From the NCBI GenBank assembly GCA_009703455.1, contig WLGB01000006.1, forward strand, positions 1-43,831: a stretch of DNA of 43,831 nt. The letters run 5' to 3'. The notes below the pieces were generated by a model. It ran no database searches. It was given only the letters and a program-made list of their open reading frames with translations, and was not told where the DNA came from. The position numbers were made by a program, and so were the translations under genes. Of the stretch, positions 5,976-7,615 are shown one piece after another; the stretch's first letter is position 1, and each line of letters starts with the position of its first letter. The DNA is from Actinomycetota bacterium (GTDB lineage Bacteria > Actinomycetota > Actinomycetes > Actinomycetales > Microbacteriaceae).

Positions 5976-5990
5976 CCCCCAGAAACTTGG

Positions 5991-6018
5991 AAAAGACCCC
6001 CAATAGGGGGTCTTTTTT
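5991..6018 (+). terminator. Rho-independent terminator after DUF3040 gene
   Basis: aaaaGACCCCCaataGGGGGTCtttttt: perfect GC-rich stem followed by a T-tract. Confidence 0.93.
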
Positions 6019-6072
6019 AGTTACTGAATCAACACACCCAGTGGAGAATTTTTGCCATAAATTTGACTAAAG

Positions 6073-6097
6073 TGGGTAAAAGTGGGGTATAGTGGAG
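6073..6097 (+). promoter_or_regulatory. MraZ operator (direct TGGGN-type repeats at 10-bp period) overlapping mraZ promoter
   Basis: TGGGT-aaaag-TGGGG-tatag-TGGAG: three repeats with exact 5-nt spacers, overlapping a TATAGT -10-like hexamer (6088-6093), upstream of mraZ. Confidence 0.85.
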
Positions 6098-6139: not shown

Positions 6140-6571
6140 ATGCTGCTAGGCACGCACGCCCCCAAACTGGACGAAAAGGGGCGAGTAATTCTTCCGGCGA
6201 AGTTCCGTGAAGAACTATCTGCAGGAGTAGTTCTAACTCGAGGCCAAGACCGTTGTCTGTACGTGTTTTCCAACAAAGAGTTCGAATCGGTAAACGAGAC
6301 CATTCGTCAGGCCCCAATCACAAGCAAACAGGCACGTGACTACCTAAGGATCTTTCTTTCCGGAGCATCTGATGAAATTCCTGACAAACAAGGCCGCGTG
6401 ACTATTCCGCCGGCACTTCGAACCTATGCAGACCTAGGTAAAGAACTTGTTGTCATTGGCGTTGGCTCTAGAGCCGAAATTTGGGACTCCGCTGCTTGGA
6501 GCGAGTATTTGACCAAGCAAGAAAATAGCTTCTCAGAAATTTCTGAGGAGGTGGTTCCAGGTCTTTTCTAA
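6140..6571 (+). CDS. mraZ: Transcriptional regulator MraZ
   Basis: [26 protein letters not shown] and [21 protein letters not shown] double AbrB/MraZ repeats; purine-rich GGGGAAGGGGA upstream of ATG at 6140. Confidence 0.95.
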
Positions 6572-6575
6572 CCTC

Positions 6576-6641
6576 GGTGACCTGATTCTTGTTTGACAAT
6601 CTTCCCCGATGTCAAAAAAGGTCAGGTCGCCAAGGGACCTG
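6576..6641 (+). promoter_or_regulatory. Structured mraZ-rsmH intergenic leader (nested hairpin with alternative pairing)
   Basis: Outer arms GGTGACCTGA (6576-6585)/TCAGGTCGCC (6622-6631), inner arms TTTGACA (6592-6598)/TGTCAAA (6610-6616); CAGGTC (6623-6628) can alternatively pair with GACCTG (6636-6641). Confidence 0.5.
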
Positions 6642-6649
6642 CACACCCA

Positions 6650-7615
6650 ATGAATGCAAACAGCAAAGATTTTCTTCACGAACCGGTAATGCTAGCGCGC
6701 ACACTAGAGCTCCTGGCCCCCGCTTTGCAAGGTCAATCCGCAATCATGGTCGATTGCACTCTCGGGCTCGGTGGACACTCCGAAGCATTTTTACAACGCT
6801 TTGAAAACTTGACCTTGATTGGGATTGACCGTGACCAAACTGCTTTGTCCATGGCCACCGAGCGTCTTTCTAGATTCGGTGACCGGGTCAAATTCTTTCA
6901 CGGAACTTACGACCAAATCGAGCTAGCACTTGAGAACAACGGCTCCTCGCAAGCCGATGCCATCTTGATGGATTTAGGCGTTAGCTCAATGCAAATCGAC
7001 AGCAAGGATCGAGGATTCGCCTACAGCTTTGATGCCCCGCTAGACATGCGAATGGACCTTCAATCGGGAACCAGCGCAGCGGGTCTAATTGCCACTGCAA
7101 CTGAAGCTGAACTTACCCGCATTTTTAAGGCGTACGGGGAGGAACGTTTTGCCTCCAAGATTGCTGCCGAGCTGGTGGCTCGTCGCAAGGACACCGCGAT
7201 TGTTTCTTCCAAACAACTGGCTTTGGTGGTTAGTGATGTCGTGCCATTTATTTCCGGCAAGAGTTCCGGGCACCCGGCAAAGCGGGTTTTTCAAGCCCTT
7301 CGGATCGCGGTGAACGAAGAGCTGGAGATCCTTGAGAGAGCCATGCCTGCCGCTATTGATGCACTGGCTCTTGGCGGAAGACTTCTGGTCTTGGCTTATC
7401 ACTCGCTTGAGGACCGGATTGTGAAGCAGGCGATTGTTGAAGCGTCAAGTTCTTCAGCACCGGTTGAGCTCCCATTTGAGCTTCCAGAGCACGCGCCGGT
7501 TCTAAAACTGGTTGTGAAGGGTGCCGAAAAGGCCAGTCTCGAAGAAATTGCCAGAAACCCCAGGTCTGCTTCGGTGCGACTAAGGGCCGCGCAAAAGATT
7601 AGGCAAGTAGCATGA
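6650..7615 (+). CDS. rsmH: 16S rRNA (cytosine1402-N4)-methyltransferase
   Basis: HEPVMLARTLELL, DCTLGLGGHSEAFL, RGFAYSFDAPLDMRMD, ALRIAVNEELEIL, LAYHSLEDRIVK: canonical RsmH/MraW motifs. Start chosen at ATG 6650. Confidence 0.95.
   Translation: MNANSKDFLHEPVMLARTLELLAPALQGQSAIMVDCTLGLGGHSEAFLQRFENLTLIGIDRDQTALSMATERLSRFGDRVKFFHGTYDQIELALENNGSSQADAILMDLGVSSMQIDSKDRGFAYSFDAPLDMRMDLQSGTSAAGLIATATEAELTRIFKAYGEERFASKIAAELVARRKDTAIVSSKQLALVVSDVVPFISGKSSGHPAKRVFQALRIAVNEELEILERAMPAAIDALALGGRLLVLAYHSLEDRIVKQAIVEASSSSAPVELPFELPEHAPVLKLVVKGAEKASLEEIARNPRSASVRLRAAQKIRQVA

Follow-up and report, generated by a model that had tools for sequence, protein, structure and literature searches.

The genome analysed here belongs to a Rhodoluna-like freshwater member of the Microbacteriaceae, whose closest named relatives are Rhodoluna metagenome-assembled genomes from lakes. 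Why does it keep 78 nt between mraZ and rsmH in an otherwise packed operon? We examined the surrounding stretch of 43,831 nt (hereafter the window), in which the gap is an outlier, as a sequence-only reading had stated: from rsmH to ftsQ, gaps or overlaps are about 20 nt or less (dcw gene names other than those tested with Pfam were assigned by gene order). Orthologues of mraZ were found in 145 of 149 relatives. An rsmH start further upstream, which would make the gap coding, is refuted, as one relative (L005) carries an in-frame stop and the peptide is unconserved. Upstream of mraZ, positions 6065-6097 hold tandem boxes AGTGGGT, AGTGGGG and AGTGGAG at about 10-nt spacing, with similar boxes in relatives; we take this three-box arrangement to be the usual layout of a MraZ binding site. 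The mraZ-rsmH element itself resembles TGGG boxes in sequence, and MraZ binding was considered. A strong terminator-like hairpin with a U-tract lies at 5990-6016, 3' of a DUF3040 gene and 5' of mraZ.

Table 1. Features of the mraZ-rsmH junction (window coordinates).
Feature	Position	Strand	Remarks
mraZ ribosome-binding site GGGGAAGGGGAA	6123-6137		full complement of the CUUCCCC loop in the window, not generally across the genus
mraZ	6140..6571	+	TAA stop 6569-6571; Pfam PF02381, E 5e-38
GGAGGTG, proposed rsmH Shine-Dalgarno	6547..6553	+	within mraZ codons GAG GAG GTG
CAGGTC, bridging helix 5' strand	6558..6563	+	last mraZ codons; pairs with 6636-6641 in full folds of the window and L003
Intercistronic hairpin	6572..6636	+	shortened mraW RNA relative; Rfam match 6572-6635
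Apical segment ATCTTCCCCGA	6599..6609	+	UUCCCC hexaloop, C-G closing pair, one 5'-side bulged base; conserved heart of the mraW motif
GACCTG, bridging helix 3' strand	6636..6641	+	the 'second copy' of the earlier reading
rsmH (mraW)	6650..7615	+	ATG start 6650, backed by relatives; Pfam PF01795, E 3e-106

The gap is filled by a hairpin. Both pairings described by the sequence-only reading are present, namely the outer arms GGTGACCTGA (6576-6585) with TCAGGTCGCC (6622-6631) and the inner arms TTTGACA (6592-6598) with TGTCAAA (6610-6616). Upon RNA folding they fuse into one long stem, as had been proposed (-33.7 kcal/mol; z -6.5; 0/200 shuffles), and a scan in steps of 5 found 6572-6636 to be the most stable 65-nt segment on the + strand of the whole window. 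Several roles considered for its parts were rejected. A promoter at TTTGACA is ruled out by the absence of a -10 element. Pairing of the CUUCCCC loop with GGGGAAG of the mraZ ribosome-binding site is perfect in the window and lacks any genus-wide association between GGGGAA and the loop (Fisher p 0.78). Pairing of the loop with GGGGA of the 3' arm was rejected on inspection: in L058, L116 and L124, changes in the 3' arm follow those in the 5' arm rather than those in the loop. Sequestration of a local rsmH Shine-Dalgarno (SD) sequence at the stem base was dismissed as a common mechanism, since blocking the 5' arm barely alters its accessibility.

To what does this hairpin belong? The mraW RNA motif (Rfam RF01746; Weinberg 2010, PMC2864571) was described without a known function, and its function was still termed unknown in a 2017 paper. 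The window hairpin shares with it the site between mraZ and rsmH in Actinobacteria, the long hairpin form, and an apical CUUCCCC loop with a bulged base on a covarying stem. It differs in that all four genomes of the window's clade are without the conserved module (outer module GAxCUCCxxCCG / CGGAUGGGGAUC; middle module GAUCUCCAGCCG / CGGAUGGGGAUC), for which reason we call it a homologous derivative and not a full mraW RNA member. RF01746 matched 65 of 119 relatives, and in the phylum sample only two borderline matches, in distant genomes, fell outside the mraZ-rsmH gap. The window element scored 28.3 bits (E 0.0013), its match having the CUUCCCC loop at the centre. This is below the gathering cut-off of 50 bits, so the element is no RF01746 member under Rfam's rule; many other copies in the genus at the same place also fall below.

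Covariation analysis, which the sequence-only reading had suggested, bore the stem out. An alignment and a model (R1) were built from 33 Microbacteriaceae copies, with the window's own clade excluded; 21 of 25 pairs had changed on both sides, and 91% of cells were paired, where shuffles gave 73% and slid versions no more than 48%. Searched over the window's whole genome, R1 returned this element as its sole match (E 4.9e-4). Relative to the alignment, the window element is missing 8 nt per strand around the conserved outer module, a minimal form shared with only three other genomes that together form one clade (100/100) and in which the stems are maintained by compensating changes. Across families the loop is near invariant while the stems covary. 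By the homology seen in this comparison, the window hairpin is a divergent, shortened homologue of mraW RNA.

The copies vary across the genus. By a regular expression, with the minimal clade separated by hand, 64 genomes were sorted into those with a canonical element, a canonical element plus a second hairpin, the second hairpin only, the minimal form, or none; genomes without an element have a gap of at most 22 nt, with one exception at 55 nt. The second hairpin, whose AACCAAGC loop is invariant, stands beside or replaces the CUUCCCC hairpin at 19 aligned loci (L006, L011, L016, L074, L087, L046 and others) and lies outside the Rfam model consensus as seen here. Tandem CUUCCCC-type hairpins, two per gap, occur in L030, L037, L047, L060, L073 and L085.

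What signal, then, starts rsmH? The sequence GACCUGCACAC directly before its AUG has a duplex energy of 0.0, or -5.0 kcal/mol if AAGGGA, 12 nt from the AUG, is included. The GGAGGUG inside the end of mraZ, which we take to be the full complement of the 16S rRNA 3' end (the general anti-SD sequence, not this genome's own 16S), forms a duplex of -16.2 kcal/mol and lies 96 nt from the AUG. The window thus combines a strong distant SD with an inadequate local one. The underlying codons GAG GTG were present in all 64 genus members, at an expected joint codon frequency of 0.071 (elsewhere in the same genes GAG usage is 39% and GTG usage 18%), and in every Microbacteriaceae genome tabulated. The site pattern occurs in 271 of 300 Microbacteriaceae genomes and 80 of 85 genera, with a reversed control pattern almost absent, and was not retained in the other families compared. 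In those families a strong SD usually precedes rsmH itself; in Microbacteriaceae the local one is weak. The rsmH-proximal SD has a median of -4.1 with GGAGGTG and -9.8 without it (p 1e-20, a comparison confounded with phylogeny). The distance from the last base of GGAGGTG to the end of the mraZ stop codon is 18 (or 12-15) nt regardless of gap length. Synonymous sites in mraZ are under constraint, seemingly imposed by the gene that follows.

Could folding bring so distant a site near the start codon? A fourth copy of the repeat, CAGGTC at 6558-6563, overlooked earlier, proved to be the preferred partner of GACCTG 6636-6641. L004 and L005 have an equivalent helix, with a compensating change in L005 (GGT to GGC, synonymous in mraZ, together with GACC to GGCC). 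Bridging was scored on minimum free energy folds of the stretch from GGAGGUG to the rsmH start alone, with start codons assigned by rule. A single exterior helix formed at 133 of 133 distinct loci, against 41% of shuffles, and 78% of the loci combined one helix with 5-12 unpaired nt, against 21% of dinucleotide shuffles; these loci and genomes are related by descent and hence dependent samples. The unpaired nucleotides remaining had a median of 9 (quartiles 6-10) and the shuffle median was also 9, so the median by itself says little, and what counts is the single helix and the narrow spread. Gaps bridged across the family range from 23 to about 160 nt. For the window, 4 + 8 = 12 unpaired nt are predicted between SD and AUG, or 5 with two additional weak pairs.

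With the hypothesis fixed first, a hold-out test was performed on 35 extra genomes, mostly of new genera; 6 had no rule-based start codon and 1 was a duplicate, leaving 28. A single helix was obtained at 27 of 28 loci and a single helix with 5-12 nt at 23 of 28 (82% against 20%), with a median of 9.5. Pairing of the mraZ tail with its own leader beat foreign pairing (z -4.1 in the genus, -3.6 elsewhere), and swapping in foreign leader ends lowered single-helix folds from 100% to 75%. All 14 short-gap loci without the mraW hairpin bridge to 6-10 nt through a small hairpin that surrounds the mraZ stop codon, and a stem crosses that stop codon in 118 of 118 standard-length tails; the accompanying pair tables derive from predicted folds and hence give no independent evidence.

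On these comparisons and fold models, we consider it likely that the window hairpin, derived from mraW RNA, is the central, looped-out part of a split ribosome-binding site of rsmH. The rsmH start would be drawn from GGAGGUG over a folded bridge, in which helix 6558-6563/6636-6641, extended by the mraW-type hairpin, would enclose the mraZ stop codon and loop out the gap. We infer that 30S subunits use the GGAGGUG site; ribosomes completing mraZ would briefly open the bridge. Split sites of this kind are known from T4 genes 38 and 25, where an intervening hairpin likewise brings a remote SD to 5-11 nt (spacing shortened from 22 to 5 and from 27 to 11 nt; PMC3014915). Unlike in T4, the arrangement described here sits in a chromosomal cell-wall operon, is conserved family-wide, spans gaps of 23 to about 160 nt and includes an older RNA element. 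In E. coli thrS, the split-site hairpin doubles as the operator of ThrRS (PMC3936740, PMC3858243), and the conserved CUUCCCC loop may similarly bind a regulator. The ThrRS operator is known, whereas a ligand of mraW RNA is putative, and here the upstream part of the site lies in another gene. Several points weigh against the split site: ribosomes translating mraZ have to unfold the structure, the window has the weak SD-like AAGGGA near its AUG, and full-context folds often pair part of the GGAGG core (median accessibility 0.21; 0.31 in the window; nearly 0 in L004 and L005).

In other families rsmH has its own SD and is usually distant from the mraW motif, and bridging therefore cannot be the original role of the motif. 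In Corynebacterium a 5' end or start site of mraW falls within or 3' of the motif, so rsmH transcripts of other families may not all carry the element. The mraW hairpin would be older than the split site and would have been incorporated into the bridge within Microbacteriaceae.

Other explanations account for part of these observations. The constant distance from GGAGGTG to the stop codon, and its retention in short-gap genomes, would also be expected if a site some 15 nt upstream of the mraZ stop tethered the terminating ribosome through its anti-SD for reinitiation at rsmH, with the hairpin merely shortening the path. Such termination-reinitiation alone fails to predict the 5-12 nt residual spacing, present even with gaps above 100 nt, and we regard it as rather unlikely to be the explanation, although it and a split site can both hold. 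Somewhat less likely still is that the element is a protein operator only, as generally proposed for mraW RNA, in which a protein on the CUUCCCC loop represses or activates rsmH and the spacing is incidental. The near invariance of the loop over covarying stems, and the presence of the motif outside Microbacteriaceae, where the split site is absent, fit an operator; in the genus, however, bridging persists in 10 genomes that have lost the loop but retain the outer module and in 13 that have no element, and an operator leaves GGAGGTG unexplained.

GGAGGTG is equally unaccounted for if the stem is an RNase III processing site dividing mraZ from the downstream dcw genes. The stem exceeds 20 bp, rnc is present, and RNase III is reported, by the title of Maeda 2016, to cleave C. 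glutamicum mraZ mRNA, but the known cleavage falls within the mraZ coding region, and RNase III occurs whether or not a genome has the element and does not track it; we judge this improbable. The sequence-only reading had proposed an attenuator or switch; of its cis-regulatory claim, covariation and synteny support a cis-acting RNA on rsmH, and the switch does not stand. Its GACCTG / CAGGTC / GACCTG layout is present and unremarkable, as a hexamer, its reverse complement and the hexamer again occur 8 times in the window (6 of these away from this site). An attenuator would require mutually exclusive 2:3 and 3:4 helices governed by ribosomes on mraZ, and blocking the 5' arm as far as about 6583 does make 3:4 the best fold. 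That competing helix (6623-6628/6636-6641) emerges only under such artificial blocking, is otherwise about 11 kcal/mol worse with a probability near 0, and shrinks to 3-5 bp in the nearest relatives; segment 4 prefers the mraZ end, and the + strand has neither terminator nor U-tract, the stem being followed by AAGGGACCTGC. We find this the least credible of the readings, and highly improbable. On the - strand, 6641-6623 forms a terminator-like site (CAGGTCCCTTGGCGACCTG, then a T-run), whose CAGGTC pairing is lost in L003; it is probably due to chance.

Returning to the split site, the new part is the GGAGGTG in the mraZ end and the bridging, mraW RNA itself having been listed already in 2010. 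We found no earlier report of a split rsmH/mraZ start in the open-licence literature; subscription journals may hold one. By sequence comparison, mraW RNA would be assigned a concrete job in one bacterial family, and a split ribosome-binding site appears to have been kept across that family, in an operon at the heart of cell division and cell-wall synthesis. We advance more tentatively, as a possibility short of even odds, that family-wide rsmH, encoding a near-universal 16S rRNA methyltransferase, starts from an SD located in mraZ, an ancient regulatory RNA acting as the folded-out arm, and that a loop-binding regulator could open or lock this start. If so, a regulator of the mraW loop could, through coupling, influence the cell-wall operon.
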